The translations under genes and the position numbers were made by a program. A stretch of DNA of 64,000 bases from Rhodoligotrophos defluvii (GTDB taxonomy: Bacteria; Pseudomonadota; Alphaproteobacteria; Rhizobiales; Im1). This document shows, piece by piece, positions 289-23,193 of this stretch. Each line of letters starts with the position of its first letter. Position 1 is the stretch's first letter. Below the pieces are notes generated by a model. That model was not told where the DNA came from. It did not search any database and was given only the letters and a program-made list of their open reading frames with translations. The stretch spans positions 734,267 to 798,266 of the forward strand of contig NZ_SZZM01000002.1 of assembly GCF_005281615.1 (NCBI RefSeq), read 5' to 3'.

Positions 289-3200
289 TTAGAGTTGGAC
301 TGCCGCCCTGCGGCCGGTGCCGCGTCCGACAGCCGCCGAGATCTGGTAGACCATGACGGTCAGGTTTCCTGGCAGGCTGCCGAAGTCGGCGAGCTGCGCG
401 CTGGCGGTATAGATCGCCGGGCTTTGCGGGGCGGTGATGGTGCGCTTCACGGCATCGGCTCCGTCGAGGACGTCGATCTCGTAGGCTTCCCTTTCCTCCG
501 CCAGCGGCACCTCGACCATGTGCCAGCTGTCGCCGCCTGCGCGTGTGCGCCGGATCCACCGGAGTTCCACATCCCCCGAGGCGAGCCTGCGGCCGCGTAT
601 GTGCACGGGGCTCAAGGGTCTCAAGCCCATCCCCGAAAAGGCGTGCTGCTGTTCGGTATAGGTGTCGCCGCCGAGGTCGTCTCCGGCCGGGCCGGCGCGG
701 TAGTGGTAGGCAAGGCCGATGTCGCCCGCCTGCATGTTGACCGGCACCACCGCTGCATCGATCACCAGGCAGCGGGTGCCTGGTGCGACGATGTCCGCCA
801 TCTCGCCGTCGGTGCCTGCTTGCGCCCGCAAGAGCCGGGTGAGCCGCCATGTCTTGGGCGCGATCAGTTCCGCGGAGGCGAATTGCAGCAGCTCCCATCG
901 CCCAGCGGCACTCTCCACCGCGATGAGATTGGCGCCGGCAAACACGGTCGGATCATCCCGCGATTGCACCTGCCCGTCGTAAAGGCGGATCTCCAGGACA
1001 TTGCCGTTGTCCCAGCGGCCGGTCGGGCCGGCGCCGAAGGGGGCGACGGTCTCGCCGGCAGCGGCGGGCGCCGCCAGCACACGGTTCAGGCTGTATCCCT
1101 GCCCACTGGCCGAACGGTAAAGATTGACGGCGCCCGGCCAGGGATGAGTGAAGGCGGCGGCATAGCCCACATGGTCGGGCTCGCCGTCCCTAAGCCGCGG
1201 CAGGTCGAGCAGGGCCAGGGCCGGCGCGGCGCGTGGCGCATTCACAGGCTTGGCCGAGATCGCCCGGCCGTGGCGGGGCGCCGCATAGGCGGCGTGGAAC
1301 ACGTCCTCGTCGAAGGCCTGGGCCTCGCAGGCACGGTTCGTCAGCTCGCTGATGCGGTTGATGCGCAAATCGCGCGCCGGTTCCCCATCATAGGCCACCG
1401 TCACGAGATCGCCGGGCTCGAGGGCGAGCAGCGACGGCGGCAGGGCGAAGGTGCCGAGATCGCGCGCCACCCACAGGTCCTGCAGCCATGTCTCGGCGGC
1501 GTTCTGCGCCCGTGCCTGGTCGATGACCACGGCCACCTCGGCCTCGGCCACCCGGGCGCTGAAGCCCGCGACCCGCCGCGCCTCGACCGCGGCCGTGCGG
1601 TAGTCCGCCTGCCCCTCGATGAAGCGCAGCTTGGCCACCTCCGGCAGCTCCGTCTCCTGGCGCCGCGTCAGGGTCAGCACCTCCCCTTGTCCCTGCTCCA
1701 CCAGCCTGTGCTGATCGAGCACCGCCACCGGCCTCGTGCCCCGCTTGGAGAACACGCGGACCTTGGCCCCGGCCTCGACCGCATCGAAGCCGAACATTAG
1801 GCCCAGCGGCTCCAGCGCCTCGCGCAGGGACATGGTGCTGTCCAGCACATAGCCGTCGACCGTGCCATGCAGCTCTGACGTGTCCAAGTTGTCGAAGCTG
1901 TAGTCCTCGCCCAGCGCCTGCACCAGGTCGGCCAGCGACACCGCGGTCGCCCGGCTGGAGATCCAGTGCCCCTGCGGCCAGTTCTCCGCGTCGCCCCAGG
2001 CCGAGCGGTCGATGGGAAAGGTCGGGAACGGCCGCGCGTCCCAAGCCCAGACACAGGTCTTGTCCGCATCCACCATGGCGCCGCCATAGGGGCCTGCCGG
2101 GTTGTTCCCCGATGCCGGGTCCCAATAGTGGGTCATGGCGTCGAGATAGGCCCGCTGGATCTCGTCGTCGCGGCCGCCGGTCGAGAAGGGCGGAATACCC
2201 GATTCCGACGACTTCGCATCGAAGAACAGGTTCGGCCGGTTGGTGCCCTTGTCGATGGCGGGGCAGCCGCATTCGGTGAAGCGCAACGGTTTTGCGCGCG
2301 GAACCCAGGCCGTGGGCGAGGCCGCCTCCACGCCGCCCGGCCGATCGTAATGAGGATTGTCCCACCAGCTGCGGATATCCTTGTTGCGGAACACCCAGGG
2401 CTTGCCGGCGCCGTCGGTGATGGGCGTGCGCAGCTGCGCGCGGCGCGCCGCCTCGTCGACATAGTACCAGTCGTAATATTCCCCGCCCTCGATGCCCCGT
2501 TCGAGGTAATCATGGTCATAGATCGAAAAGATGCCCGCCTCCGGGTCGTAATCGAGGTGATCGCGGCCCTCGCGCCAGTCGGACAGGGGCAGGTAGTTGT
2601 CGATGCCGATGAAATCGACATTGGCATCGGCCCAGAGCGGGTCGAGGTGGAAGATGACGTCACCGGAGCCGTCGTCCGGCCGGTGGCTGTGATATTCGGA
2701 CCAGTCGGCGGCATAGCCGATCGCCACCGCCGGTCCCAGCATCGTCCGCGCATCGGCGGCGATGCCCATCAGCGCCTGAACGAAGGGATATTGCCCCGCC
2801 GCGTCCCGCACCTGGCTCAAGCCGACCATTTCCGAGCCGATGAGCAAGGCGTCCACACCCGCGGCGTTGGCCAGGGCGGCATAGTGCAGGATGAAGCGGC
2901 GGTAGGACCATTCCGCCGGCCCGGCATAGTCGATCCGGCTGCCATCGACCGAGAAGTCGCCGGGGCCGGCCGTGCCCACGAACACATCCACCTGGGCGGC
3001 GGCTTCCGCCGTCAAGTCGGCGATCAGCGGTGTCGTGCCCAGATTGATCCAATAGGGCTTGAGCCCACGACCGCGGGTAATCTGCGGGCCAGCAAAACTG
3101 GCCGAGCCGGTGGCCGCGGCACTGGTGGCGGGGAAGGACGTCTTCAACCCGAAGGCGGGGAACAGATCCGCGCGCAGCATGGTGCCGCCGGGGTCCTCCA

Positions 3201-4791
3201 GATCGACCCACAGCCGGCGGAAGTCGCCGGCCGACTCCATGCCGTGGGCGTGCGCGACGAGCCCGGCGCCGGCGGTCAGCACATTCAGCTGGTCGGTGTC
3301 GGGATTGTAGCGGAGGGTGACGGTGTGGGTGCCGAGCCGGGTCATCACCCGCAGCGCCGGGAAATGGGCGGCGGCCTCATCCCGCAGCACATAGGCGGAA
3401 ACCGTGACCCGCTTGCCGGCCAGCAGATCGGCCGAGCACGCGCCGAAGCCGCCGGCCGCGCCTGAGCTGTCCGTCAGGGTGACCCGCTCCCCGGCAATGC
3501 CGTCGGGCATGGTGCCGGCAGCGGCCATCCGGCTCACATTCGATAGGGTCCAGCCGCTCAGGTCGCCCGTCGTCAGAAGCGCGTTGCCCTGCCCCGGCGC
3601 CGGGTCGCAGGCGATGCGGCCGCGCCAGGGATAGGCCGGCTGCCCGGTGCCGCCCGTATGCGGGTCCGGCAGGGCATTGTCCGCCGGCACGTCCATCATC
3701 AGGAACGGCAGCAGGATCACATAATAGCCGCGTGCCTTGAGCTGTTGGATCGCGGCGATCACGGATGCGTCGTTCGGTGTGCCGCCATAAGCGGGCCTAC
3801 CCGCGATCAGGGATACGACCTCAGCGTCTTGCCGCTCCAGGCCCGCAACCCGCCAGCGGATCGGCATGGTATCTTTCGTCGCATTATCGACCTTCGGGCG
3901 GACGGTGCAGCTGCCACAGCGCAGGTCGTCGCCGAACCAGGCCACCACCAGGTTCACCGATTTGAGGTTCGGCAGCAGCGCCGCGAGATGGTCGAGCGAG
4001 ACGCTCCAGTCGCTCGTGCCGGCGGTCACGTGCCGGTTCTCCGGGCCGACGAAGATCGCCCCCCAGCTGCCGGTGCTCACCTGCTTCACTGCCTGCGGCT
4101 CATAGCCGAACTCGGTCGCGCCGGGGATCAGGTTCACTCCGAGGATCCGCTCCTCCACTCGGCCGGGCAGCGGCTTGAACACCTCGAAATTCAGCTGCGG
4201 GATACGGTTGCCGAAGCGCTCCAGCGGCAGGCGCTCGAACACCACATAGGCAATCCCGCGATAGGCCGGCATATTGCCCGCCCCTTCCTTCGCCTCGAGG
4301 AGCGCGTCCGGCAGCTGGTCCTCGCTGCCGGCATGGACGCGGTAGCTGATGTTGTTGAGGTCCAGCTCCTTGCCGTCCGCCCAGACGCGGTTCACATGGG
4401 CGATTTCGCCCTCGCACAGGGCCACGGCGAAGTTGGCGTAATAGCGGTAGTTGATCGTGGTGATCGTCTGGCCGCCGACCCCGAACACGCCGCCCACGTC
4501 GTCCTTGTCCTTGTCGATCTCCTCCTCCAGGCGGGTCGCCCAGATCATCTGGCCGCCGAGGCGGGCGCGGCCATAGGCGCGGGGGATCGGGCTGCCTTCG
4601 GTCGCCGAGAGCACGTCGAGCTCCGTCAGCCGCGGCCCGATGCGGGTCGTGCCGCCGCCGCCGAACAGAGCGTTGTCGATGACGCTGCCGGCAATGGCCG
4701 CGCCGGCATTCAGCAAGGCTTGGCCGACGGCATTCAGCCCCAAGGACGAGCCCAAGGCGGATGCGGCCGTGGTCAGCAGGATCGACGCCAT
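289..4791 (-). CDS. GTA host-contact/baseplate protein with TIM-barrel domain (orfg15 type)
   Basis: This 1500-residue protein is the tail-tip 'megatron' of GTA particles, thought to bind the recipient cell surface. The N-terminus has a short hydrophobic Ala/Gly-rich segment followed by a region typical of tail-hub proteins. The middle carries the glycoside-hydrolase-like GTA TIM-barrel domain; visible pieces are FIGIDNYLPLSDW near residue 725 and RFTECGCPAIDKGTNRPN near residue 837, whose Glu is the probable active-site position. The C-terminal third matches the putative phage tail domain. The length is slightly above that of the R. capsulatus protein. It is the last gene of the operon, 7 bp after the NlpC/P60 gene. 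Role is from family knowledge; intactness is seen. Confidence 0.9.
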   Translation of the reverse strand: MASILLTTAASALGSSLGLNAVGQALLNAGAAIAGSVIDNALFGGGGTTRIGPRLTELDVLSATEGSPIPRAYGRARLGGQMIWATRLEEEIDKDKDDVGGVFGVGGQTITTINYRYYANFAVALCEGEIAHVNRVWADGKELDLNNISYRVHAGSEDQLPDALLEAKEGAGNMPAYRGIAYVVFERLPLERFGNRIPQLNFEVFKPLPGRVEERILGVNLIPGATEFGYEPQAVKQVSTGSWGAIFVGPENRHVTAGTSDWSVSLDHLAALLPNLKSVNLVVAWFGDDLRCGSCTVRPKVDNATKDTMPIRWRVAGLERQDAEVVSLIAGRPAYGGTPNDASVIAAIQQLKARGYYVILLPFLMMDVPADNALPDPHTGGTGQPAYPWRGRIACDPAPGQGNALLTTGDLSGWTLSNVSRMAAAGTMPDGIAGERVTLTDSSGAAGGFGACSADLLAGKRVTVSAYVLRDEAAAHFPALRVMTRLGTHTVTLRYNPDTDQLNVLTAGAGLVAHAHGMESAGDFRRLWVDLEDPGGTMLRADLFPAFGLKTSFPATSAAATGSASFAGPQITRGRGLKPYWINLGTTPLIADLTAEAAAQVDVFVGTAGPGDFSVDGSRIDYAGPAEWSYRRFILHYAALANAAGVDALLIGSEMVGLSQVRDAAGQYPFVQALMGIAADARTMLGPAVAIGYAADWSEYHSHRPDDGSGDVIFHLDPLWADANVDFIGIDNYLPLSDWREGRDHLDYDPEAGIFSIYDHDYLERGIEGGEYYDWYYVDEAARRAQLRTPITDGAGKPWVFRNKDIRSWWDNPHYDRPGGVEAASPTAWVPRAKPLRFTECGCPAIDKGTNRPNLFFDAKSSESGIPPFSTGGRDDEIQRAYLDAMTHYWDPASGNNPAGPYGGAMVDADKTCVWAWDARPFPTFPIDRSAWGDAENWPQGHWISSRATAVSLADLVQALGEDYSFDNLDTSELHGTVDGYVLDSTMSLREALEPLGLMFGFDAVEAGAKVRVFSKRGTRPVAVLDQHRLVEQGQGEVLTLTRRQETELPEVAKLRFIEGQADYRTAAVEARRVAGFSARVAEAEVAVVIDQARAQNAAETWLQDLWVARDLGTFALPPSLLALEPGDLVTVAYDGEPARDLRINRISELTNRACEAQAFDEDVFHAAYAAPRHGRAISAKPVNAPRAAPALALLDLPRLRDGEPDHVGYAAAFTHPWPGAVNLYRSASGQGYSLNRVLAAPAAAGETVAPFGAGPTGRWDNGNVLEIRLYDGQVQSRDDPTVFAGANLIAVESAAGRWELLQFASAELIAPKTWRLTRLLRAQAGTDGEMADIVAPGTRCLVIDAAVVPVNMQAGDIGLAYHYRAGPAGDDLGGDTYTEQQHAFSGMGLRPLSPVHIRGRRLASGDVELRWIRRTRAGGDSWHMVEVPLAEEREAYEIDVLDGADAVKRTITAPQSPAIYTASAQLADFGSLPGNLTVMVYQISAAVGRGTGRRAAVQL

Positions 4792-4798
4792 ATGCCCC

Positions 4799-5251
4799 TC
4801 ACAATGTGTAGAGATAAGCCCCGGCCAGGCGCTTGCGCCACCAGGGGTTCAAATGCACCTCGCTGACCGTGATGCCTTGGTGGATGTGGATCATTCGGTC
4901 AGATGCGGTGAGAATGCCGGCGTGTTTGGCGACGGCGCCCTCGCGCCAACGGAACGCCACCACGGCGGCAGCCCGGCATTCATCCACGGGCACGGATGCG
5001 AGGTGCCGTGCCAGGCCGTCGAGCAGCAGTTCGCGGCCGCCGGTCTCGGCCCAGTCCGGCGCATAGGCGGGCAGCGCCACCGGCGGCTGGCCACCGAGAT
5101 CGCGCCAGACACCGCGGACAAGGCCGATGCAGTCGCAGCCAATCCCTTTGAGGCTCGCCTGGTGGCGGTAGGGCGTGCCGAGCCAGGCCCGCGCCGCGGC
5201 GATGACTGCCTCACTCGCCGGAGAAATTGCCGCCGCCGTCGAGATTGGCAT
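4799..5251 (-). CDS. NlpC/P60 family peptidoglycan hydrolase (orfg14 type)
   Basis: About 150 residues, the usual length of the GTA/phage-tail NlpC/P60 cell-wall hydrolase that helps DNA cross the recipient envelope. The catalytic cysteine sits in GCDCIGLVRG (about C41) and the histidine in AKHAGIL (about H110), with a further His at MIHIHQG. The homologous part starts at EAVIAAARAWLGTPY. The ATG at 5251 was chosen because it is the closest in-frame ATG upstream of that segment; it overlaps the previous gene by 41 bp. A GTG at 5214 is in the wrong frame. The frame stays open further upstream, but that part lies over the previous gene and has no counterpart in the family. It is followed after 7 bp by the orfg15-type gene. 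Confidence 0.85.
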   Translation of the reverse strand: MPISTAAAISPASEAVIAAARAWLGTPYRHQASLKGIGCDCIGLVRGVWRDLGGQPPVALPAYAPDWAETGGRELLLDGLARHLASVPVDECRAAAVVAFRWREGAVAKHAGILTASDRMIHIHQGITVSEVHLNPWWRKRLAGAYLYTL

Positions 5252-6110
5252 CGCCGGGATTGGGATAGGCCATGACGAAGTCATTGGTCGGCATATGCGG
5301 AAAGCCGCGGAAATTGGCGGCATTGGCGAATTTCGCCCGGCAGGTGGCGAAGCGCTTGTCGCAACCGGCTTCGACCATGAACTGGTCGTCAAGGGCGATG
5401 GTGCCGGCAGGCGCCTGCCACAGTTCCAGGAACACCGCGCCCGCTTCCAGCCGGTGCGTCTTGACCTCGGACACAGTTCCCACATTCGCACCCGTGGTCC
5501 ACACGAGGCGCCCGCGCTCGAACCAGCGGCCGGGGAAATTGGCGAGGCCGCCGGCATCCAGCCTGCGGTTCGCCTGCACGGCGGCCACGCTGCCGAAGCC
5601 GCGAAACCCTTCCGTATCGAGCGAGAAGCGGCAGCGCTCGTCCCCCAGCACCGCGTCGCAGGTGAACTGATAGAGCCTCCCGCGGGGCTGATTGAGCCGA
5701 TGGGCCAGGCCGCGGATCTCGGCGGTGAAGGCTTTGCCGCTGCGGCTCACCTCGCCGAGATTGCCCTTGCGCATGAGCACCCACTGGGTGGGATCGCGCC
5801 AGTTCACCCGCAGGATTTCCACTTGCGCGTCATCATAGCGGCCGGCGGCGATATCCTCTTCGGTGATCGCGTCCGCGCTCAAGGCCGCTTCTGCCTGCAT
5901 GGTGTCCACGGCAAGCCCCAGGCCGGACGCGATCTCGCCCGCGGTGAAGCCGGTACCGGCCTGGTAGGTGACCCCAGCCACCACCAGGTCCAGATCATGG
6001 TCGGTGAAGCCCATCACCACGCCGTCATGGCGGGTGATCTTCCAGCACCAGGCCAGCGTCGTGGCGCCGCTGCCGAGATGGGCCTGCAGATCCGGGCTCA
6101 AGGCTTTCAT
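5211..6110 (-). CDS. Phage/GTA baseplate protein, DUF2163 (orfg13 type)
   Basis: This 299-residue protein matches the DUF2163 / BR0599-type phage family found as orfg13 in GTA clusters. It starts MKALSPDLQAHLGSGATTLA and contains TRHDGVVMGFTDHDLDL, a signature of this family, and several conserved cysteines in the second half (TCDAVLGDERCRF, CDKRFATCRAKF). In the R. capsulatus GTA particle the homologue is part of the distal tail/baseplate. Its start overlaps the stop of the orfg12-type gene by four bases (6107-6110), indicating translational coupling. Confidence 0.88.
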   Translation of the reverse strand: MKALSPDLQAHLGSGATTLAWCWKITRHDGVVMGFTDHDLDLVVAGVTYQAGTGFTAGEIASGLGLAVDTMQAEAALSADAITEEDIAAGRYDDAQVEILRVNWRDPTQWVLMRKGNLGEVSRSGKAFTAEIRGLAHRLNQPRGRLYQFTCDAVLGDERCRFSLDTEGFRGFGSVAAVQANRRLDAGGLANFPGRWFERGRLVWTTGANVGTVSEVKTHRLEAGAVFLELWQAPAGTIALDDQFMVEAGCDKRFATCRAKFANAANFRGFPHMPTNDFVMAYPNPGDANLDGGGNFSGE

Positions 6111-6739
6111 GTCCGCACCTCCACCAGCGGGATGTTGGGGATTTCGCCGGCCTGGAAGGCGGTCAGGTTGATGTCCAGCATGTCGGTATCGAAGCGCACC
6201 GGCACATCGAAGGCAAAGCCCGCGGTCACGGCCGCACCGGCCACGGGTGCCGCCGCAAAGGTCACGAGGCCGGTTGTCACGTCAACGGTGAAGTCCACAC
6301 CCAGGCTCTGCTCGATGCCGGCAACCGCCGCCCGCACCGTGCCCGCCGCCGGCTTGGCAATGGGCCTGATGTAGCTCACAGGGCCCGATGCATAGTGCTT
6401 CACCAGCTGGAAAATGGTTTGGGTGCCATCGCCGGTGCCGAGCTGCTGATCAGTCGGCGCGATATTGCCGCTGGGCGCGCAGGATTTGAAATCCGCATGG
6501 TCCTTGAAGCGGAAACCGTAGAGGCGGCCGCCGCGTGCCTCGAAGAAGGCGAGCACTGCGTGCAGGTCGTCCAGCGAGCGCACCCCATAACCGGCATTGT
6601 AGCGGCGTCTGGAATGGGCCCAGCGGCCGTTGCGCTCCTCGCCGCCCGAGGCGAGCGTCACCACATCGGTGCGCCGCTCGGGCCCGCCCGACGAGCCGAA
6701 GGCGATGCTGGTGGGAAACCGCACCTCATGAAAGGTCAT
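6107..6739 (-). CDS. Phage/GTA distal tail protein, DUF2460 (orfg12 type)
   Basis: A 210-residue protein of the DUF2460 (TIGR02217-like) family. Diagnostic stretches are the N-terminal FHEVRFPTSIAFGSSGGPER, the segment NAGYGVRSLDDLHAVLAFFE and ARGGRLYGFRFKDHADFKS. In GTAs the homologue forms the distal tail hub that connects tube and baseplate. It overlaps the next gene by four bases and follows the tape-measure gene after 15 bp. Full family length, no damage seen. Confidence 0.9.
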   Translation of the reverse strand: MTFHEVRFPTSIAFGSSGGPERRTDVVTLASGGEERNGRWAHSRRRYNAGYGVRSLDDLHAVLAFFEARGGRLYGFRFKDHADFKSCAPSGNIAPTDQQLGTGDGTQTIFQLVKHYASGPVSYIRPIAKPAAGTVRAAVAGIEQSLGVDFTVDVTTGLVTFAAAPVAGAAVTAGFAFDVPVRFDTDMLDINLTAFQAGEIPNIPLVEVRT

Positions 6740-6754
6740 GGCTGCTCTCGGCTG

Positions 6755-7339
6755 TCACAGATTGCGCTGGCCCCGGGCCATGGCTCTCGCCAGTATGGCG
6801 CCGATCTCCGATTGCGAGCGGCGGAAGCCGGCGACGTCCGGGGTGGTTACGTTGAAGGTGATGTGGATCGGCCGGGCGCCCGCCCCGTCGCTGCGCACGC
6901 CGAGGCGGCCGTCTGCGCCGCGGGCGAGCGGCAGGATGGCTTCCGGCCCCGCCTCGCCCATGAGCCCCGTGCCGCCGCGCAGGGGAAACAGGGTCGGGCC
7001 GTTCACCACCCCGCCATCGGCGAAGGGTTTGAGCACCCCGCCCGTGAACACATTGCCGCGCGCATTGGCGGTGAGGCCGCTGATCGCGCTGGTGAGCGCG
7101 GTGCCGATCCCCTGGGTCAGCGGCCGTAGCGCCGCCGTCAGGGTCTGCCGCGACAGGGACAGGATGAGCGAGCGCAGCACGTCATCCAGCTTGCGGCCGC
7201 TGATTGCCGCATTGGTGAAGACCCGCGCCATGGAACGCTCGAAGCCGGCGGTGAGCCGCCCCACCTCCTCTAGGTCCTTCCTGAACTGGGTCGAATCGAG
7301 CGCGATCGAGACGTTTAACCCCTCAATCTCCTCTGCCAT
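6755..7339 (-). CDS. Short tail tape-measure protein (orfg11 type)
   Basis: 194 residues, starting MAEEIEGLNVSIALDSTQF. The first half is predicted helical (DLEEVGRLTAGFERSMARVF). The second half carries the GTA tape-measure signature FADGGVVNGPTLFPL and GLMGEAGPEAILPL, followed by a nucleotide-level Gly/Arg-rich tail. The very short length compared with phage tape measures (often more than 600 residues) fits the short tail of GTA particles. It overlaps the preceding chaperone-like gene by 17 bp. Confidence 0.9.
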   Translation of the reverse strand: MAEEIEGLNVSIALDSTQFRKDLEEVGRLTAGFERSMARVFTNAAISGRKLDDVLRSLILSLSRQTLTAALRPLTQGIGTALTSAISGLTANARGNVFTGGVLKPFADGGVVNGPTLFPLRGGTGLMGEAGPEAILPLARGADGRLGVRSDGAGARPIHITFNVTTPDVAGFRRSQSEIGAILARAMARGQRNL

Positions 7340-7565
7340 GATCAGCTCCTTGGTCTGGATAGCGCTGGATCAGGCGGTCGAGCGTGGCGCGGTCGAGGGC
7401 GTCTGCGCCCCGCGGCAGCACGCCGGCGCCTTCGAGGGCCGCGCCGAGCTCGCGCGGGGTCATGGACCAGAAGCTGGCGGGATGCAGCTTGAGCACGCCC
7501 AGCCCCAAGGCCATCAATCGCCGCCAGGGGAACCCTGATGTGGCCCGGTTGTCAGGCACCATCAT
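7323..7565 (-). CDS. Phage tail assembly chaperone-like protein (orfg10.1 type)
   Basis: An 80-residue protein with the motif FPWRRLMALGLGVLKLHP and SFWSMTPRELGAAL, typical of the small conserved ORF between orfg10 and orfg11 in GTAs (TIGR02216-like; a tail assembly chaperone by position). The ATG pair at 7565/7562 lies 14 bp inside the end of the orfg10-type gene, and the homologous region begins about residue 12, so a start near here is needed. The position just before the tape-measure gene matches the chaperone slot of many siphophages. Confidence 0.82.
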   Translation of the reverse strand: MMVPDNRATSGFPWRRLMALGLGVLKLHPASFWSMTPRELGAALEGAGVLPRGADALDRATLDRLIQRYPDQGADHGRGD

Positions 7566-7884
7566 CGGCTCCGAACGTTGCCTGCAGCAGCGCTGCCGCC
7601 AGCCTCACAAATCCGGCGGCGCCACCCTCCATGGTCATCCGCGCCACTGTCGCATCGTCGACTTCTGCGCCGCCACCGCGCAGGCCCGCCCCGATGATCC
7701 TGATCACATCGGTCGCCTGCAGCCGGCCGCCGTCGAACCGCTGGGCGAGCTGCATCAGGTCGATGCCGCCATAGGCGGATTCGAGCTCGGCGAGTGCCCC
7801 CAGGGTCAGGCATAGCCGGTACGGCCGGCCGTCGAGCACCGCCTCGACCTCGCCCCGGTGTCGGTTGACCATCGTGCCGCTCAT
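7552..7884 (-). CDS. GTA family protein, tail chaperone slot (orfg10 type)
   Basis: 110 residues from the ATG at 7884 (MSGTMVNRHRGEVEAVLDGR). The frame is open further upstream, but only this start gives the family length and it makes a four-base ATGA overlap with the stop of the major tail protein gene. The stretch YRLCLTLGALAELESAYG is the hallmark of GTA gp10 proteins, followed by a helical segment with LQATDVIRIIGAGLRGGG. The two small ORFs orfg10 and orfg10.1 overlap, like the frameshift chaperone pair G/GT of lambdoid phages, although here each has its own start. Confidence 0.85.
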   Translation of the reverse strand: MSGTMVNRHRGEVEAVLDGRPYRLCLTLGALAELESAYGGIDLMQLAQRFDGGRLQATDVIRIIGAGLRGGGAEVDDATVARMTMEGGAAGFVRLAAALLQATFGADDGA

Positions 7885-8294
7885 GCCGCTGTAAAGGTGA
7901 GCGGGCCGGCGGATTCGAGCGCCAGTTCGAAGCTCAGCTCGCCATCGTGTTGACCGGCATAGTCCAGGGCGGTCATCTGGAACTTGCCCTCGATCGTGCC
8001 GAAATCGGGCACGATCACCTGCCAGTCGCGGATCGTGTCGGCGAAGAAATAAGAACGGGCGATCGCGTCCGAGCTTTCGTCCCGGAAGATGCCGGCGCCC
8101 CGTATGCTGGCTGATTTCACCCCGGCGCCGGCCAGCAGCTCCCGCCACTGGTTCACCGAGTCCGCATTGGTGGTGTCGACCGTGCGGGCATTGAGCCCGA
8201 TCGAATGGGTGCGCAGGCCGGCGATGGTCAGGAATGCACCATTGCCGTCCTGATCCACCTTGAGCAGCAGATCGCGGCCGCGTTGAGCCGTCAT
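7881..8294 (-). CDS. Major tail (tube) protein, TP901-1 family (orfg9 type)
   Basis: A 137-residue tail-tube subunit. It begins MTAQRGRDLLLKVDQDGNG and contains the family segment TVDTTNADSVNQWRELLAG and a C-terminal half with beta-strand patterns (ALDYAGQHDGELSFELALES). Proteins of this TIGR02126-type family polymerise to the non-contractile tail tube. It is coupled to orfg10 by an ATGA overlap and lies 37 bp after the tail-terminator gene, the only visible gap in this part of the operon. An SD-like GGAG (reading GAGAGGACC) precedes the ATG. Confidence 0.9.
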   Translation of the reverse strand: MTAQRGRDLLLKVDQDGNGAFLTIAGLRTHSIGLNARTVDTTNADSVNQWRELLAGAGVKSASIRGAGIFRDESSDAIARSYFFADTIRDWQVIVPDFGTIEGKFQMTALDYAGQHDGELSFELALESAGPLTFTAA

Positions 8295-8331
8295 GGTCCT
8301 CTCCTATGCATCCGTTCAGTGAGGCTGCGTG

Positions 8332-8754
8332 TCAGGCGTCCTGGGCCAGCGGCTCGGTCACGGCGCGCAGCCGGACGACCCCGTGATAGGTCACGCCATC
8401 CGGGTCGCGCAGGGCGTGCCAGAAGACGGGGCGCAGGTTGATGAGCCTGTGACCGGTCAGGGCCGGCAGTGGGCCGTCGAGCGCTTCGTCGATCGCGCCC
8501 ATGATGGTCTGGATCTCGCGGCGGCCGGCCGCCCGTGACCACACGTGGATGGTTACGTGGTGCTCGTGGCCGCGGCGGTTTTGGGTGCTCCAGTCGCTGG
8601 TGCGGATCTCGCCTATGGTGACATAGGGGAACGGCCGGCGCTCCTCCACGTCATCGGCGATCCCGTCGGGACCGATGAGATCGGTCACCCCCGCATTGGC
8701 GCTCAGATGGCTGAACAGCGCCTTTTGCAGCGCCAGGGCGGCGACAGTGCTCAT
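8332..8754 (-). CDS. Tail terminator/completion protein, DUF3168 (orfg8 type)
   Basis: 140 residues from the ATG at 8754 (MSTVAALALQKALFSHLSAN). The DUF3168 signature VTIGEIRTSDWSTQNRRGHE and the segment HVTIHVWSRAAGRREIQTI are clear. In GTA particles this family sits at the head-tail junction as the tail terminator ring. The upstream open frame was rejected because the ATG at 8754 is in the four-base ATGA overlap with a 37-codon ORF and because homologues start here. Confidence 0.88.
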   Translation of the reverse strand: MSTVAALALQKALFSHLSANAGVTDLIGPDGIADDVEERRPFPYVTIGEIRTSDWSTQNRRGHEHHVTIHVWSRAAGRREIQTIMGAIDEALDGPLPALTGHRLINLRPVFWHALRDPDGVTYHGVVRLRAVTEPLAQDA

Positions 8755-8864
8755 CGCCTGCCCTCCTCGTTTTTCGCTGCCGCCGCTGCCTTGATCCTGG
8801 CCAGAACCTCGGCGAGGCGCGCTGCGAGCCGCTCGCGGCCGGCTATACGCAGTTCGATCTTCAT
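8751..8864 (-). CDS. Small 37-residue ORF between head-closure and tail-terminator genes
   Basis: From ATG at 8864 to TGA at 8751-8753 the minus strand encodes 37 residues starting MKIELRIAGRERLAARL and ending KNEEGRR. Both ends use ATGA overlaps: its ATG overlaps the stop of the orfg7-type gene and its stop overlaps the ATG of the orfg8-type gene. That perfect nesting argues for real translation. The peptide is charged and predicted helical, with an Ala/Arg/Leu pattern. Its start resembles the N-terminus of HK97 gp10-type tail-completion proteins, which occupy this slot in many phages, so it may be a remnant of one. RcGTA has no recognised gene here. Confidence 0.6.
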   Translation of the reverse strand: MKIELRIAGRERLAARLAEVLARIKAAAAAKNEEGRR

Positions 8865-9187
8865 GGGGTGAGCCTTTCCCGCACGAGACAGGTGAGGTGT
8901 CGCCGCCGCTCGGCATCATCCCGCACGCTGTCGATTTCAAAGATCCTGGTGCCGGCGATCAACCGCATGTCGGTGGACACGTCGTCCCGGTAGCGGATGG
9001 TGATCCGGTGCGTCACTGCCGCCGAGATCTTCTCCGCCTTCACGCCGTTCTCGAAGCGCACCGGTTCCACCGCCGCCCAGACCGCTGCCACCGGCTGCCA
9101 AGTCACCTCGGCGCCGCCGGTACCGTCGCTCACGCGGACGGGCCGCTCCAGCCTGAGCCGATGGCGCAGCTTGCCGATGCGGGTCAC
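8861..9187 (-). CDS. Phage head-closure/head-tail adaptor (orfg7 type)
   Basis: A 108-residue protein starting MTRIGKLRHRLRLERPV with the pattern GGAEVTWQPVAAVWAAVEP, characteristic of the SPP1 gp16-like head-tail adaptor family. C-terminal ITIRYRDDVSTDMRLIAGTRIFEI completes the beta-barrel fold. It closes the portal-connector channel after packaging. It is four-base coupled both to the connector gene before it (9184-9187) and to the small ORF after it (8861-8864). Confidence 0.9.
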   Translation of the reverse strand: MTRIGKLRHRLRLERPVRVSDGTGGAEVTWQPVAAVWAAVEPVRFENGVKAEKISAAVTHRITIRYRDDVSTDMRLIAGTRIFEIDSVRDDAERRRHLTCLVRERLTP

Positions 9188-9759
9188 AGCGCCAGCACCC
9201 GGTACGGGGCGATCAGCGCCTTGATCATGGCCGGCAGCTCGAAGGGCTGGTCGCCGAGGCCCACCGGCTCGCGGTTCTCGTACCAGTGGGCGACGAGCTG
9301 CAGGATCGCCTGGCGCAGGGTCGCGGGCACCGTTTCCGGCTCGTCACCATAGCCGGCGGTAACCTCGATTTCGATGCCGCGGAAGGCCCGTTCCGGGCGC
9401 GGCCATTGTTTGCCGGTGCGCGGCTTCAGCCGAGGCAACACGCCCGTATCGGCCACATAGATCGCGGGGTCGACGAGCTCGGGTTCGCCGTCGTCGCCGT
9501 AGACGAGGACCCGGTCGACCGTCTGAACCGGCCGGATGGGCAGCGTGATGATGCCGTCCTTGGGCCAGTCGTCCAGGAACACCGACCAGCCCTGGGTGAT
9601 GAATATACGCCGGGTGGCGATTTCCAGGTGGATGCGGGCAGAGGTGATCAGCGCGGCAATCAGCTCGTCCTCGAACGCGCCATCCACGCGGAGATGGCCA
9701 CGCGCTTGCTCGAGGCTCACCGGTTCGACCGCCGGCGGTGAATTGGGAACCGACATCAT
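9184..9759 (-). CDS. Head-tail connector, gp6-like (orfg6 type)
   Basis: 191 residues from the double ATG at 9759/9756, preceded on the minus strand by a good SD, CGGAGACGACCC. The longer open frame upstream lacks such a site and was not used. The segment SLEQARGHLRVDGAFEDELIAALITSARIHLE is cut here to its idea: the conserved SLEQARxHLR start of HK97 gp6-like connectors, then ATRRIF and a C-terminal ILQLVAHWYENRE, which is diagnostic. The connector ring joins the portal to the tail. It lies 109 bp after the capsid gene. Confidence 0.88.
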   Translation of the reverse strand: MMSVPNSPPAVEPVSLEQARGHLRVDGAFEDELIAALITSARIHLEIATRRIFITQGWSVFLDDWPKDGIITLPIRPVQTVDRVLVYGDDGEPELVDPAIYVADTGVLPRLKPRTGKQWPRPERAFRGIEIEVTAGYGDEPETVPATLRQAILQLVAHWYENREPVGLGDQPFELPAMIKALIAPYRVLAL

Positions 9760-9868
9760 GGGTCGTCTCCGACAACGTGCTCTCAAATTCATGGAGGGGG
9801 CGCGGCAAACGGTCTCCCGCTGGCCGCGCCCCACATTCGGCACGCCCCTGTCGAGGGGGAGGCGGGGA

Positions 9869-11143
9869 TCAGGACGTGCCGAATTTGATGAGCTTGATCG
9901 CGTCGAAATCCTGCACGCCGCCGCCGACCCGCTTGGTCGTGTAGAACAGCACGTAGGGCTTCGCCGAATAGGGATCGCGCAGCACCCGTAGCCCCAACCG
10001 GTCGACGATCAGGTAGCCGCGGCGGAAGTCGCCGAAGCCTACGGAGAAGCTGTCCGTGGCCATGTCGGGCATCGCCTCCGCCTCCGCGACGGGGAAGCCG
10101 AGCAGGCTTGCCGGGGTGCCCGCCTGCAGGGCGGGCTGCCAGATATAGTTGCCGTCCAGATCCTTGATCTTGCGGATCGCCGCCTGAGTCTTGCGGTTCA
10201 TGACCCAGTGGGCATTCTGCCGGTAGCCCGCCTTGAGGGCATAGACCAGGTCGACCAGCACGTCGGCCGGATCGGTGCCGGCGAAATCGCCCGCGGCGCC
10301 GGTGGCGAGATAGCCGAGATTGCCCCAGCTCCATCCGCCATTCGCGACCTTGGCATAATCCAGGAAGCCCCTCGGCTTGTTGCTGCCGTCGCCGGTCACG
10401 AAGGCCGTTCCTTCCTGCTCGGCGAACACGGTGCGCACTTCCTCGGCGATCCACTGGTCGATATTGACGGCTGAGTCATCGAGCAGGGTCTGGGTTGCCG
10501 CCGGCATCGCATAGAGCTCCATGGTGGGGAATTCGAGCGAGGCGAGCGTGGGCGAGGTGGTCTGGTTGCGGGTGCCGGTCTCGGCCACCCAGCCCGCGGC
10601 GGCGCCGGTCGTCACGAAGGGCTTCTTGTAAAGCGCGCCGGAGACTTGCCGCACGCTGGCGATGGCGCGGATCGGCGAGATCTCGGCCATGAGCCGGCCG
10701 ATCTCGGTCTCGGTCTCCTCGGGCACGAGATAGCCGCCATCCGGCCCTGAACCGACCGAGAGCGCCTTCGCCTCCAGCCCGGCGAGGCCGGTGGTCTCGC
10801 CCTTCCGGACATAGGCGTGGAAGGCGGCCTTGTGCTCCGCCGCGCGGGCGTCAGGCAGGCCGTCCTCCGCAGTGCTCGCGCCCAGGCGTGGCCGGGCGGC
10901 CTTGAGCACCAGCTCGTCCAGCCGCTGCTTCTGCTCGTCCAGCGCGCCGTTGATCCGCTGCACCTTCTCGCTGGTCACGGCGTCGGCCGTCATGCGCCGC
11001 TCCAGTTGCGCGAGGCGTTCGTCATTGGCCTCCTTGAAGCTCTCGAAGGCCTGCATGAAGCCGTTGAAAGCGGCCGCGATATCCGCCGATGGCGGTATGG
11101 CGACCTTGGTCTCGAACGGTCCGTGGTCCAGATCTCGCATCAT
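9869..11143 (-). CDS. Major capsid protein, HK97 fold (orfg5 type)
   Basis: 424 residues. Residues about 25-85 form the charged coiled-coil scaffold (delta) domain, with EANDERLAQLERR and INGALDEQKQRLDELVLKAA. It is probably removed by the operon's prohead protease near residue 100-125. The mature part has the HK97 phage-capsid signatures GGYLVPEETETEI, TLDDSAVNIDQWIAEEV and GDGSNKPRGFL, and the C-terminal VGFGDFRRGYLIVDR. It follows the protease gene, the usual order. A 109-bp gap after the gene may allow extra control of capsid levels. Confidence 0.93.
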   Translation of the reverse strand: MMRDLDHGPFETKVAIPPSADIAAAFNGFMQAFESFKEANDERLAQLERRMTADAVTSEKVQRINGALDEQKQRLDELVLKAARPRLGASTAEDGLPDARAAEHKAAFHAYVRKGETTGLAGLEAKALSVGSGPDGGYLVPEETETEIGRLMAEISPIRAIASVRQVSGALYKKPFVTTGAAAGWVAETGTRNQTTSPTLASLEFPTMELYAMPAATQTLLDDSAVNIDQWIAEEVRTVFAEQEGTAFVTGDGSNKPRGFLDYAKVANGGWSWGNLGYLATGAAGDFAGTDPADVLVDLVYALKAGYRQNAHWVMNRKTQAAIRKIKDLDGNYIWQPALQAGTPASLLGFPVAEAEAMPDMATDSFSVGFGDFRRGYLIVDRLGLRVLRDPYSAKPYVLFYTTKRVGGGVQDFDAIKLIKFGTS

Positions 11144-11166
11144 GGTTGTCCTCGCTTGGCAGATGA

Positions 11167-11664
11167 TCAGGTCAGGAAGGATCGGGCCGCGGCGCGGATG
11201 GCCGCCGCGGTGGTCATGGGAAGCGGCACTGGAGCAGGCTGCCGCTGCCCCATGATCCGGGCCTCGCTCAGCAGCGGAAAGGTGACGATCGAGATCTCCC
11301 AGAGATCCACCGCCCTCAGCAGCCGCAACCCGGTCGCGCGGTCGCGGGCGGCGCGCACCGTGCGGAAGCCGATGGACAGGCCGTCGAGCGCGCCGAGGCG
11401 GATCAGCCGGGCAATGTCCTCCGCCCGCGCGACGCCCGCCGCCAGCATGCCGCTCGCTTTCAGCCCATGGCGGTCCTCGCGGATATCGGTCCAGATGCCG
11501 ATGGGCTGCGCCGGGTCGTGCTGGAACAGCATCTTCACCGCGGCCGGCGGCCGGCGGGCGAGGCTTGCGGCGAAGGCGCCGGCCATCACCACGTCGCCGG
11601 CGCTGTCCGGGCGGCCGAACAGGCTCGCATAGCCCTCGACGCGAAGCGAGGCTTCGAAATTCAT
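11167..11664 (-). CDS. Prohead protease, HK97 family (orfg4 type)
   Basis: 165 residues from the ATG at 11664, which is preceded on the minus strand by an AGGAC SD at suitable spacing. The frame is open further upstream but homologues start here (MNFEASLRVEGYASLFG). The U35-type catalytic residues are visible: His in MLFQHDPAQPIG (about H49) and Ser in ALDGLSIGFRT (about S97). The enzyme matures the capsid by cutting the scaffold domain. It sits between portal and capsid genes, as in GTAs and HK97. Confidence 0.9.
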   Translation of the reverse strand: MNFEASLRVEGYASLFGRPDSAGDVVMAGAFAASLARRPPAAVKMLFQHDPAQPIGIWTDIREDRHGLKASGMLAAGVARAEDIARLIRLGALDGLSIGFRTVRAARDRATGLRLLRAVDLWEISIVTFPLLSEARIMGQRQPAPVPLPMTTAAAIRAAARSFLT

Positions 11665-11731
11665 GGATGATGTCCTGTGGAAAATCGAAGAGGGGGCCTG
11701 CCCAGAAGCTGGCAGCACCGACCGCCCGCGG

Positions 11732-12940
11732 TTATTCGGACGGCCTGCTCGCCTGGCGCGGCCCATAGCCGACAGCGGCCCGCTTCTCGTCGTCCGAAAG
11801 GAACGTCGCGGCGTTGATGCGCGACCACAGCGCCTCGCGCTCGGTGGCCAGCGCCTCGATCTGGTCGGCATCGTACCAGAGCCGCAGGTCCTCGCCGAAG
11901 CTGGGCGCCAGCCACTGGCTCAAGGCCCGTGCCGTACGCCCCACCAGGGGCAGCACCGTCTGGCGCCAGAAGGTGCGGTTCGCCTCGGCGTAGTTGGCGA
12001 AGGTGTTGTCGCCGGGAATGGCCAGCAGCATCGGCGGCACGCCGAAGGCCAGCGCGATCTCGCGGGCAGCCGTGTTCTTGGCCTCGATGAAGTCCATGTC
12101 GCGCGGGCTCAGGCTCATGCTCTTCCAGTCGAGCCCGCCTTCCAGCACCAGGGGCCGTCCGGCATTGGCCGTGCCCTGGAATGAGGTCTCCAGCTCCTGC
12201 TTCAGCCTAGCGAACTGCTCTTCCGAAAGGTTGCCGGCGCCGTCCTGGCCGGCATAGACGAGCGCGCCGGAAGGGCGCGCCGCGTTGTCCAGCAGGCTCT
12301 TGTTCCAGGCGCCCGCGGCGGTATGCACGTCCACGCTGTGCGCGGCCGCCTCGAACGGGCTCAGGCCGTAGTGCTCGTTGGTGGGATTGAACAGCTTCAG
12401 GTGCAGGATCGGCTTCTGTCCGCGCGCCGGCTGGGTGAAGCGGACAGTCTGCCCGTCCACCGTATAGGCATAAGCTTCGGGCCAGCCGTCGCTGCCGGGA
12501 ATGACCCGCATGCGGTCCGGCCGCAGCACGTGCAGCTCGCGCGGGCGGCCGCCGACGGCGACCACCTCGAGATAGCTGTTGCCGGCGGTCTGCAGGTAGC
12601 CGTAGAAGGCTTCGAACAGGTCGGCACCGCTGCTGACCGGATTGGGGCTCGTCAGCAAGTCGAGCAGCGGATGGCGGTTGACCTCGGCGTTTCCGTCGTA
12701 GAGCAGCCAGGGCACGGCGGCCGCGGCTTCGGCGATCATCCTCACGCAGCGATAGCCCACCGCGTTATGCGCATAGCCTTCGCGCGCGAGGCTCGCATAA
12801 TTCCGGGGGGTCCATACCGGCTGCCCCTGCATGTGCAGGGCGATGAGCGGACCCGTCGCGCTGCGCTTTTCCTCGGGCGCGGTCGCTGCCGGTGAAACCG
12901 GCCTGGTGGCCCGCCACTTCAATCGTTCCAGGATGCCCAT
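11732..12940 (-). CDS. Phage portal protein, HK97 family (orfg3 type)
   Basis: 402 residues from the ATG at 12940 (MGILERLKWRATRPVSP). A TTG at 12964 would add eight residues and overlap the terminase stop, but the ATG has a strong AGGGG SD five bases upstream. Family landmarks: NAVGYRCVRMIAEAAAAVPW, the segment DLFEAFYGYLQTAGNSYLEV and IALAFGVPPMLLAIPGDNTF. The dodecameric portal forms the DNA entry channel and docks the terminase. A gap of 67 bp separates it from the protease gene; RcGTA has a small orfg3.5 here that is not recognisable in this window. Confidence 0.92.
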   Translation of the reverse strand: MGILERLKWRATRPVSPAATAPEEKRSATGPLIALHMQGQPVWTPRNYASLAREGYAHNAVGYRCVRMIAEAAAAVPWLLYDGNAEVNRHPLLDLLTSPNPVSSGADLFEAFYGYLQTAGNSYLEVVAVGGRPRELHVLRPDRMRVIPGSDGWPEAYAYTVDGQTVRFTQPARGQKPILHLKLFNPTNEHYGLSPFEAAAHSVDVHTAAGAWNKSLLDNAARPSGALVYAGQDGAGNLSEEQFARLKQELETSFQGTANAGRPLVLEGGLDWKSMSLSPRDMDFIEAKNTAAREIALAFGVPPMLLAIPGDNTFANYAEANRTFWRQTVLPLVGRTARALSQWLAPSFGEDLRLWYDADQIEALATEREALWSRINAATFLSDDEKRAAVGYGPRQASRPSE

Positions 12941-12960
12941 GCTGTCCCCTGCTGAATTGA

Positions 12961-14367
12961 TCAAACCGCGCGGATGCGCGGCGCCCGCTGGCGGCCGAGC
13001 ATCAGGTCGGTGAAGGCCCAGACCAGGGCGTCCGCCCGGTCGGGGCTGCGCCCGGCGCTCGCCACCAACTGCGCGAAGCTCACCAGCTCGTCCTCGAGCT
13101 CGGGAAAGGTCCCCACATGCGATATCCGCCCCTGCTCGTAGAGCGCTGCGACCGGTTCCGCGCGAACCTGCTTGCCCCGGCTCGCCCGCACCGCGCGAAA
13201 CGGGATCGCCGGGTCCACCTCGCGCAATACCGCTTCGACCATGTCGCCCCCTTGATTGACTTCCGCCACCAACCGGTCCGCCTCGAACGAGTGCAACAGC
13301 TCGATGGCGCGCTTTGCCCAGCGGCCGGGTGCTGCGCCGTCCAGCGAGCCGTCGTGCAGAACGTAGCCGCGCCCGTCGCCGCCGATCCCGGCGCAGACGA
13401 TGCCGCAGGCATTGGCCCTGGCCGAGCCGGTGGCCGGCGGGTCGACGGCGACAACGACCCGGACCAGGTCCGGGGCTGCGGCCAGCCGTCCCGCCTCGAT
13501 GTCGGCGCGTTTGAACAGCGCGTCGGGATCATCCTCGATCAGCTCGCCGTCGAGCTCCTGGCGGCCGAGCCTGGTGCCGCCGTATTTTCCTTCGACCGCC
13601 GCGATGAAGGTGGGCGCCAGGTTGGCCGCGTTGTCCCGGGTCCTGGCGCGGGAGACCCGCGTGCCCGCATCCGCCAGCAGCCGCTTGAGCAGCGGCACCG
13701 GCTTCGGTGTGGTGGTGGCCACGATCCGGGGTCTCGCGCCCAGGCGCAGGCCGAACTGCAGCATGTCCCAGGTCTCTTCGGCATTGCGCCACTTGGCGAT
13801 CTCGTCGCACCAGGCCACCTCGAATTGCGGGCCGCGCAGGGCGTCCGGCTCCTCGGCCGAGAAGAGCTGCGCGATGGCGCCGTTGGCCCAGGTGATCGTG
13901 CGCTTGGAAGGCTCGTAGTCCGGGCGGCTCCGGCGATCGTGGACGGCAAGCAGCCCGGAGTCTCCCTCGACCATCACCGCGCGCACGTCGTTCAGGGTCT
14001 GGCCCACCAGGGCGATCCGGCGCACCGGCGCGCAGCAGAAGCATAGATCCCCCCGCGCTTGCGCCTTGATCCATTCCGCGCCCGTTCGGGTCTTGCCGGC
14101 GCCGCGGCCGCCCATCAGCAGCCACACGGTCCAGGTCTCGTCGAAATCCGTAAGATCCGGCGGAAGTTGATCCTTGCGGGCGCGCAGCGCCCAGTCCCTC
14201 TGCATCTCCGTGAGTTCGCCCAGCCCAAGCCGGCCGAGCCGGGCCAGTCGCTCAGAGGGGGCCAAGGAGGCCCAACCGTTCCGCAAGCTCCGCGCGCAGG
14301 ATATGTAGTACCTTCTCGTCTCGTTCAGGGTTCGGCTCCTCCGGCTTGCCTCCCCCCTTGAGTTCAA
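12961..14367 (-). CDS. Terminase large subunit (orfg2 type)
   Basis: Packaging ATPase/nuclease. Walker A GGRGAGKT lies at residues 86-93 of the longest frame, with Walker B-like FEVAWCDEIAKW near 185-192. The RNase-H-like nuclease domain starts around VVVAVDPPATGS (residue 300) and ends with DRADALVWAFTDLMLG. The ATG at 14367 would overlap the small terminase gene by 116 bp. A TTG at 14265, 14 bp before the small-subunit stop, gives a family-like start (LAPSERLARL) and may be the true one, so the first 34 residues are uncertain. The stop overlaps a possible TTG start of the portal gene. Confidence 0.9.
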   Translation of the reverse strand: MNSRGEASRRSRTLNETRRYYISCARSLRNGWASLAPSERLARLGRLGLGELTEMQRDWALRARKDQLPPDLTDFDETWTVWLLMGGRGAGKTRTGAEWIKAQARGDLCFCCAPVRRIALVGQTLNDVRAVMVEGDSGLLAVHDRRSRPDYEPSKRTITWANGAIAQLFSAEEPDALRGPQFEVAWCDEIAKWRNAEETWDMLQFGLRLGARPRIVATTTPKPVPLLKRLLADAGTRVSRARTRDNAANLAPTFIAAVEGKYGGTRLGRQELDGELIEDDPDALFKRADIEAGRLAAAPDLVRVVVAVDPPATGSARANACGIVCAGIGGDGRGYVLHDGSLDGAAPGRWAKRAIELLHSFEADRLVAEVNQGGDMVEAVLREVDPAIPFRAVRASRGKQVRAEPVAALYEQGRISHVGTFPELEDELVSFAQLVASAGRSPDRADALVWAFTDLMLGRQRAPRIRAV

Positions 14368-14761
14368 GGTCGATCAGCTTGTCGATGGCGTTCACGATGG
14401 TGGCCATGGCGCGCGCCGACCGCTCGCTCAACGCGCTGTCGTTCGGATGTCGGTCGTTTATGGCCGCAAGCTGCTCGAGCTGGTTGGTCAGCACCTCCAG
14501 CATGCGGGCCCGGATCTGCGGCACGGTCATTGCCTTGCGGCGGTTCCGCTTGACTGGCGCGCCCGGCGTGATCGGCGCCGGCGGCGGCCCGCTCCCGCGG
14601 CGCCGTGCCGGCATCCGCCCCGGCCAAGCCTCGCGCACGGCGCGGTGGTAGAGCGAGGAGACGGATATGCCGAACCGGTGGGCGAGCGCCTCGACCGGTT
14701 CCTTGTTGGCCTCGTAGGCAGCCCTGAGCGCCGCCCAGTCTACCTTGACCGAACTGGCCAT
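14252..14761 (-). CDS. Terminase small subunit-like, with HTH (orfg1 type)
   Basis: 169 residues from the ATG at 14761 (MASSVKVDWAALRAAYEAN). Residues about 20-45, VEALAHRFGISVSSLYHRAV, read as a helix-turn-helix like those that recognise pac/cos sites in phage small terminases. The middle is basic with Pro (APVKRNRRKAMTVPQIR), followed by an oligomerisation-type helix (MLEVLTNQLEQLAAINDRH) and a C-terminal tail. As first gene of the cluster, directly before the large subunit, it fills the orfg1/TerS position. Function is inferred from position and domain pattern; the family is weakly conserved. Confidence 0.8.
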   Translation of the reverse strand: MASSVKVDWAALRAAYEANKEPVEALAHRFGISVSSLYHRAVREAWPGRMPARRRGSGPPPAPITPGAPVKRNRRKAMTVPQIRARMLEVLTNQLEQLAAINDRHPNDSALSERSARAMATIVNAIDKLIDLELKGGGKPEEPNPERDEKVLHILRAELAERLGLLGPL

Positions 14762-15161
14762 CGCTGGTCGTCCTCGACGGATATGGGGCTGTGTCTGGAG
14801 GCTGTCGCAATCGCGACGGCGGCGCTCACGGAATGACCGGTGCCGGGCAAATGCAGGAACGATCACCAACGCGAATGCCGCGTCGGCCTTTCCCTCGCCC
14901 GCAGTGATCGGATTATGGCAAATTTTACACAAACAGCGGCGCGCTGTCAATAGAAATTTACGAACAGCGTGAGTTTATGTTGCCATGGCGTGATCGTGAG
15001 CAAAACTGCAAGAGCTGTGCGGATCCGATTGACGTCCCTCGCGTTTTTCGGACCAGCGTCTTGGTTATGTATTCTTTAGCCGGGTTGTCGTATATTGCCG
15101 CAATTGGCGCTTATCTCAGGCAAGCGACCGCGCTTGGGTTGCCCGCGAAGCGGACGGCCGG
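14762..15161. promoter_or_regulatory. Divergent intergenic region: GTA operon promoter side and PBP1A
   Basis: About 400 bp without a convincing gene lie between the GTA terS (leftward) and the PBP1A gene (rightward). It must hold both promoters. It contains an inverted repeat ACAGCG-GCG-CGCTGT at 14933-14947 in an AT-richer patch (AATTTTACACAAACAG before it and AATAGAAATTTACG after it), and AACAGCG occurs again at 14963-14969. These are candidates for a regulator site controlling the GTA operon. An 87-codon frame at 14977-15240 has no protein-like features and was rejected. No clear -35/-10 pair could be assigned. Confidence 0.5.
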
Positions 15162-21195: not shown

Positions 21196-21263
21196 GCGAT
21201 CCTCCGACAGTCCTGGGCTCCCTGGTGCTTGTCCTTCGCCGGCAAAGGGACTATGTCCGCGGT

Positions 21264-23022: not shown

Positions 23023-23042
23023 TTCTCGACCCTCGCCCCGTC

Positions 23043-23082: not shown

Positions 23083-23193
23083 TTGACGTGATGCGTAACC
23101 TTAACGACTCAATTATTACCCAATCGAATACGTCCGGGGATAAGTTGAGGTCGAATGGGCGCCGACCAAATACGCAGCGGGGTGCTTTAAAAG

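Follow-up and report, generated by a model that had tools for sequence, protein, structure and literature searches.

The gene transfer agent (GTA) of Rhodobacter capsulatus (RcGTA; Rhodogtaviriformidae, type I GTA) is encoded by a cluster running in the order g1 to g15 and is governed by a gafA-type activator. In the GTA of Caulobacter crescentus (CcGTA) the same two halves of this activator occur as separate proteins, GafY and GafZ, and the GafZ element is a palindrome lying between the -35 and -10 promoter hexamers (PMC11150451, PMC9632790). RcGTA-like genes have been proposed in 60% of 730 Hyphomicrobiales genomes (PMC9638019, citing Kogay 2019), and an inducible Mesorhizobium prophage, vB_MseS-P1, carries homologous head-tail genes in a similar order (PMC11409702). 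Here the corresponding locus of Rhodoligotrophos defluvii, a member of the same bacterial order, is described from a stretch of 64,000 nt (the window; C2:734267-798266, C2 being contig NZ_SZZM01000002.1 of assembly GCF_005281615.1, a genome of 5.49 Mb in 20 contigs, G000). A cluster of 16 genes, g1 (TerS) to g15, occupies the minus strand at 289-14761 in RcGTA order, and very probably represents a domesticated GTA of the RcGTA (alphaproteobacterial type I) kind, passed down with the chromosome and maintained by selection.

Such GTA sets are already known in relatives; the new points are side details: a g15 insert found almost nowhere outside the genus, a relationship between the tail tip and that of a prophage-like region of the same genome, and the interruption of g15 in a congener by an element that carries an integrase gene. 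From other predicted Hyphomicrobiales clusters the locus differs by the g15 insert and is otherwise ordinary. Comparisons draw mainly on two genomes of the same genus (G001, G002) and one of the same family (G003); by capsid-gene similarity the closest named genomes are Hyphomicrobiales, in a list that may leave out very near genomes.

The structural cluster

The original prediction of an intact GTA operon is borne out in extent, order and integrity: the g15 stop lies at 289 and the TerS ATG at 14761, family matches follow the RcGTA order from TerS to the tail tip (g11 by position), and the frames of g1 to g15 are open, with neither a stop nor a frameshift found. The tight four-base overlaps of that prediction are confined to three of the 15 junctions (g6/g7, g9/g10, g12/g13), the other 12 showing overlaps of 14-116 bases or gaps of 7-109 bases, depending on the starts chosen. 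In a search against solved structures, the matching RcGTA chain is the best match for seven of the eight cluster proteins tested, and TerS has no match in the PDB. The large terminase TerL, whose start is unsure (TTG at 14367, 14286 or 14265), contains a Walker A motif, an acidic pair and nuclease-type motifs, and g14 contains Cys and His motifs. The genome yielded no match to Terminase_4 (PF05119), the family with which the search began. Of the 14 head-tail genes used to judge completeness, which are the full 17 less g1, g3.5 and g7 (PMC10883770), all are present (g2-g6, g8-g10, g10.1 and g11-g15), g11 being recognized by position and conservation only. Beyond that set, g1 and g7 are also found, and the g3.5 of RcGTA is absent, the 67 bases between g3 and g4 leaving no room for it.

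Selection and descent

Comparison with G001 by the Nei-Gojobori method yields rough ratios of non-synonymous to synonymous change (dN/dS) of 0.076 (g13) to 0.335 (g7) over the 16 genes, next to 0.113 and 0.152 for the flanking penicillin-binding protein (PBP) and sufE genes. Against G002 and G003 the ratios are mostly higher, for the flanks too. These sequence comparisons indicate purifying selection on all 16 genes, exact strength aside, in line with the selection originally claimed.

In a capsid tree of 82 rows, the window and its congeners form one group (support 100/99), and many GTA capsids group by host family, with no firm place for G003. One pair placed outside (100/98) consists of the capsids of prophage-like regions in G000 and in G003; two from prophage-like regions of G002 form long branches of unsure place, one of them drawn among the GTA rows. 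The closest phage capsids, two records, reach 62% identity at best. Additionally, the G+C content of the cluster, at 0.684, exceeds that of the remainder of the window (0.633) and of the nearby part of the right flank (0.652), a cluster G+C above that of the host being one criterion for a GTA (PMC6821227). The cluster also holds a fixed chromosomal place: on one side it adjoins the PBP, DUF1214 and DUF1254 genes in G000, G001, G002 and G003, and the left side is likewise shared if the break described below is an assembly join. Together with the control genes and promoter pattern, the dN/dS values, neighbours and capsid tree support well the earlier proposal of a selected GTA rather than a decaying prophage.

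Control genes and operon promoter

A search for gafA, suggested with the original prediction, locates it in the window itself, where it had been missed. It is split, as in CcGTA and in distinction to RcGTA, and lies no more than 12 kb from the capsid gene (Table 1). The gafZ gene overlaps gafY, which encodes the DnaA helix-turn-helix (HTH) domain, by four bases, and carries the only DUF6456 match in the genome (window 21821-22231). Sherlock and Fogg described a split gafA with sufE and an HTH gene alongside in Hyphomicrobiales (PMC9638019); the same arrangement is found here: the DnaA-like gene precedes the DUF6456 gene, sufE being downstream of the pair and the divergent HTH gene upstream. 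A capsid match is present in 46 of 61 genomes (G000 with 60 relatives), a DUF6456 match in 50 and both in 43, some of the capsid matches being weak or fragmentary (e.g. G016, G028, G032). The two lie on one contig in 23 genomes, less than 50 kb apart in 22 of these; in the remaining 20 they are on separate contigs (C3 and C12 in G002), mostly in fragmented assemblies.

Upstream of TerS, a promoter-like sequence matches 11 of 12 consensus bases, and its palindrome starts inside the -35 hexamer and takes up most of the -35/-10 interval. The position of the palindrome is shared with CcGTA and its sequence differs; by analogy with the Caulobacter element, it may be a GafZ site. A 9-mer, TTGACAGCG, is common to G000-G003. 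Having been chosen from these four family genomes before the wider look, it occurred in a first count in 17 of 59 regions (two of them, L003 and L010, wrongly cut), with 25 copies in 1.32 Mb of loci. A broader survey passed from 75 named loci to 60 with a TerL match and 57 with at least 500 bases before TerL. The pattern TTGAC-nn-CG-n3/4-CG precedes TerL on the operon strand in 45 of these 57 loci, against 1.6 expected from Markov-resampled sequence, and never on the other strand; a leave-one-out matrix recovers it in 47 of 57. Since the same loci had been viewed before the pattern was drawn up, the shuffle control speaks to its rarity and is not a blind test; many of the loci are close kin (Bosea, Microvirga), so that the 45 are not 45 independent cases. 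Allowing up to three mismatches, the genome contains a single site matching the full window promoter pattern. As a general GafY site, a GATAAG that lies before the promoter was considered and rejected, since only two of 49 regions (the window and G001) have it.

Literature searches and the searched text, figures and supplements aside, of PMC6363796, PMC9638019 and PMC11150451 turned up no report of the order-wide promoter pattern or of the gafYZ-cluster distance. If the pattern is the GafZ site, GTA control could be predictable across much of an order.

By analogy with RcGTA and CcGTA, regulation, packaging and transfer would proceed as follows. The divergent HTH protein would hold gafYZ down, and its release would turn gafYZ on. 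GafY (DnaA-like) and GafZ (DUF6456) would then act on the promoter at 14950-14922, GafZ via the palindrome, and the 16-gene operon would be transcribed; its expression is predicted. TerS and TerL would load host DNA into small heads, for delivery by a tail that comprises g9-g13, the g14 peptidase and the g15 megatron. A complete, selected and apparently regulated GTA offers a further experimental candidate beyond the two model species.

In the intergenic region between gafYZ and the HTH gene (23023-23193), GGGGATAA(G/A)TT is kept in all four genomes G000-G003; three of them also keep TTAA-N7-ATTA, which resembles a degenerate CtrA site.

Table 1. Positions of GTA-related and adjoining features in the window, with the matches that identify them
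Feature	Position	Strand	Basis
g1, small terminase TerS	14252..14761	-	PHROG terminase small subunit 3e-5; purine-rich leader before ATG 14761
g2, large terminase TerL	12961..14367	-	Terminase_6N 6.8e-30, 6C 5.1e-17; motifs
g3, portal	11732..12940	-	RcGTA portal Rcc01684, 1.5e-133
g4, prohead protease	11167..11664	-	Peptidase_S78 7e-30
g5, major capsid protein	9869..11143	-	RcGTA capsid Rcc01687, 2.7e-102
g6, adaptor	9184..9759	-	RcGTA Rcc01688, 1.6e-10
g7, head completion	8861..9187	-	Phage_HCP 6e-29
g8, tail terminator	8332..8754	-	Tail_completion_gp17 1.3e-35
g9, tail tube	7881..8294	-	RcGTA Rcc01691, 4.9e-47
g10	7552..7884	-	Phage_TAC_11 (GTA-gp10) 7.9e-30
g10.1, tail assembly chaperone	7323..7565	-	Phage_TAC_6 4.2e-19
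g11, short tape measure	6755..7339	-	by position; no Pfam match; 75% identity to G001
g12, distal tail protein	6107..6739	-	RcGTA Rcc01695, 9.1e-85
g13, hub	5211..6110	-	RcGTA chain, 2.8e-79
g14, NlpC/P60 peptidase	4799..5251	-	NLPC_P60 8.8e-6; start unsure
g15, megatron, 1500 aa	289..4791	-	GTA_TIM 1.7e-140; RcGTA chain, 1014 bits
g15 insert, residues 396-592 (197 residues)	3016..3606	-	in 3/3 genomes of genus
Operon promoter, TTGACA-17-TAAAAT with palindrome ACAGCG-CGC-CGCTGT	14922..14950	-	GafZ binding putative
gafY (N-terminal half of gafA)	22582..23022	-	Bac_DnaA_C 3.6e-19
gafZ (C-terminal half of gafA), 281 aa	21740..22585	-	DUF6456 4.3e-49
Divergent HTH gene, Cro/C1-type, candidate gafYZ repressor	23194..23760	+	HTH_31 5.4e-13; putative role
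sufE, usual neighbour of split gafA	21225..21731	+	SufE 4.9e-46
Class A PBP, right flank	15162..17495	+	Transgly 8.7e-64; same neighbour in G001, G002, G003

The g15 insert and the tail tip

The g15 protein is 1500 residues long, compared with 1304 in the RcGTA chain, and contains an insert that RcGTA lacks. In the other two genomes of the genus the insert is 66% and 57% identical to the window copy. Searched against 397 genomes of the order at E 1e-3, it matches in six; within a megatron beyond the genus it is found in G383 only, at 30% identity, and for G037 and G231 the match is short and lies outside any megatron match. It is placed in the part matching the RcGTA megatron peripheral domain (residues 230-744; PMC7296036) and may play a role in binding recipients. 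No match was obtained in Pfam or in phage records at E 1, nor a meaningful one in the PDB (best 0.39). A model of the insert alone from AlphaFold, with a mean pLDDT of 39.5, was dropped for the fold search. By general appearance the insert may be a beta-sandwich, sugar-binding module. Among viral contigs the sole match is to the GTA of G002 itself: record L166 (IMGVR_UViG_2828001536_000002) matches the G002 GTA cluster with 100% identity over 6,573 bases, a case of a GTA entered in a catalogue as viral.

A prophage-like region at C1 ~494-513 kb (L150, L113) bears on the origin of the tail tip. It has its own capsid, 47% identical to the GTA capsid, together with a terminase and a 605-aa tape measure assigned by position and size; no integrase was found within ~55 kb, and the region may be either a phage or another domesticated cluster. 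A capsid related to that of this region occurs in G003 (C1:2763978). The g12-g15 genes of the region are related to those of the GTA, and its g15 is without the insert. It is possible, if the less probable course, that the GTA is a mosaic whose tail tip was exchanged with a phage like this region, the g15 insert being gained afterwards; such a history is compatible with a domesticated, selected GTA. Specifically, the region g15 is 80% identical to the window g15 over residues 1-395, compared with 47% for the capsid, and in a quick tree of 30 rows (26 of them taken in file order from the top of 44) it joins the window and G001 with support 1.000, while G003 falls elsewhere. Two other genes weigh against an exchange: the region g12 (68%) is scarcely nearer to the window than the G003 g12 (67%), and for g14 the region (46%) stands further off than G003 (56%). 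Exchange in either direction would fit. Slightly more doubtful is a joint scheme in which the Hyphomicrobiales GTAs have one dedicated promoter in common, a -35/-10 pair with a GafZ-loading palindrome, and keep gafYZ alongside, and in which the adsorbing end of the particle was remodelled in this genus, its tail tip by exchange with a temperate phage and g15 by later gain of a domain that helps to choose the recipient cells. The insert, and a tail tip akin to that of a prophage-like region, bear on what decides the recipients of a GTA.

A DUF2793 gene follows g15 in G002, in G003 and in the C1 ~494-513 kb region. The encoded protein is a relative of chain S in PDB entry 8gtc, a roseophage. Lone DUF2793 genes are present in G000 (C3:432947) and G001 (C1:3671933). 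In the suggested search for a tail-fibre gene, the gene at C3:432947 emerged as a candidate fibre gene of the GTA; it is unlinked to the cluster.

Particle release and points against a maintained GTA

Several observations weigh against a selected, domesticated GTA. The dS values against G001 are 0.81-1.66, which makes the dN/dS values rough, and TerS reaches a dN/dS of 0.69 against G003. In the gafYZ intergenic region there is no GGAA-N4-TTCC, the Caulobacter RogA operator, which is a further difference from CcGTA; the only match in the window, at 55787, is at chance level (0.84 expected). The RcGTA endolysin is a GH108 protein, and GH108 has no match in the R. defluvii genome, in distinction to RcGTA. 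In G003 the DUF2793 gene is succeeded by genes for a phage lysozyme and a PF11351 holin; in the R. defluvii genome neither a relative of that lysozyme nor a GTA-linked holin was found. Moreover, g15 of G002 is split at C3:354005-369270 (L153, L117): the match runs up to codon 778 and is taken up again, starting with codon 765, ~15 kb away, and the second part has one in-frame TAA. An integrase gene (Phage_integrase 2e-8) adjoins the first break, a DUF5906 ATPase gene lies inside the element, and 13 bases are common to both junctions, as if g15 were the integration site. The cluster is therefore not kept intact throughout the genus, in which its loss is tolerated.

The search of the rest of the genome for endolysin and holin genes, proposed with the original prediction, thus produced no GTA-linked lysis gene, and the holin-endolysin pair of the RcGTA type, which is not required of the wider family, was not found in G000. 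The sole match to PF11351, the GTA holin family, at C1:1881963, was rejected as the GTA holin: it lies in another prophage region, with an integrase gene nearby and neighbours unlike those of a GTA. This second prophage region (C1:1878-1892 kb, L114) contains both the integrase and the PF11351 match.

These results fit an operon that is intact yet releases no particles now, its lysis genes and linked fibre having been lost and its genes persisting through recent or other selection. In G003, g15 is followed by the DUF2793 fibre, lysozyme and holin genes, and in R. defluvii by the start of a PepSY-like gene; the lack of a lysozyme relative elsewhere and the split g15 of G002 point the same way. 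This account is nonetheless unlikely. Purifying selection acts on each of the 16 genes, at a level resembling that in the flanks, and G001 is without the same two lysis families and has an intact g15. In addition, the Caulobacter GTA leaves its host through LypABC, without holin and endolysin (PMC13236601), and no holin-endolysin homologues are reported for CcGTA.

Tyrosine integrases have 13 matches in the genome; the nearest on C2 is ~382 kb from the cluster, with none within 380 kb on the contig, and the one closest to C1:581227 is ~142 kb off, serine integrases and phage replication genes not having been searched genome-wide. Direct repeats of at least 12 bases around the cluster were not found. 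The predicted lack of lysogeny genes holds to this extent, and of the contrary evidence named beforehand, an integrase or repressor beyond the window with att sites, neither a nearby tyrosine integrase nor flanking repeats were found. A temperate phage or recent prophage with RcGTA-like head-tail genes, its lysogeny module lost or beyond the window, is most improbable. In its favour, Hyphomicrobiales include inducible prophages in which 12 homologues of RcGTA genes are similarly ordered (PMC11409702), and the distance from TerS to a Cro/C1-type HTH gene is 8.4 kb. Against it, that HTH gene adjoins gafYZ, in agreement with the published arrangement, the integrase and repeat searches were negative within the scope given, the flank genes are the same in three relatives and the capsids follow host family. 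The missing nearby tyrosine integrase and the flank genes shared with relatives likewise set the cluster apart from vB_MseS-P1.

Chromosomal surroundings

The description of the flanks as ordinary holds on the right, the class A PBP, DUF1214, DUF1254 and sufE genes lying there; on the left the window extends only 288 bases past the cluster, and the next base out is a single N. This N, at C2:734266, joins the N-terminal part of the PepSY-like gene to an autotransporter-like gene, and the rest of the PepSY-like gene lies beside a second single N, at C1:581227; a histidine kinase gene is found at C1:578728. On that side of the cluster, G001, G002 and G003 carry a PepSY-like gene and a two-component pair, some with genes between. 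The join at C2:734266 is probably an assembly join, in which case the C2 genes left of the window may be false neighbours; rearrangement is the alternative. One of them (L112:5898-10151) is a large autotransporter-like gene with at least 10 passenger repeats, the end of which runs into the N.

Nine further proteins scanned at 24558-62222 of the window are all ordinary: a PAS domain protein, an acyl-CoA dehydrogenase, a prolyl oligopeptidase, an Mrp antiporter, a methylmalonyl-CoA mutase, a HerA-like helicase, an M24 peptidase, an ABC permease and an ATP-grasp/CoA ligase.

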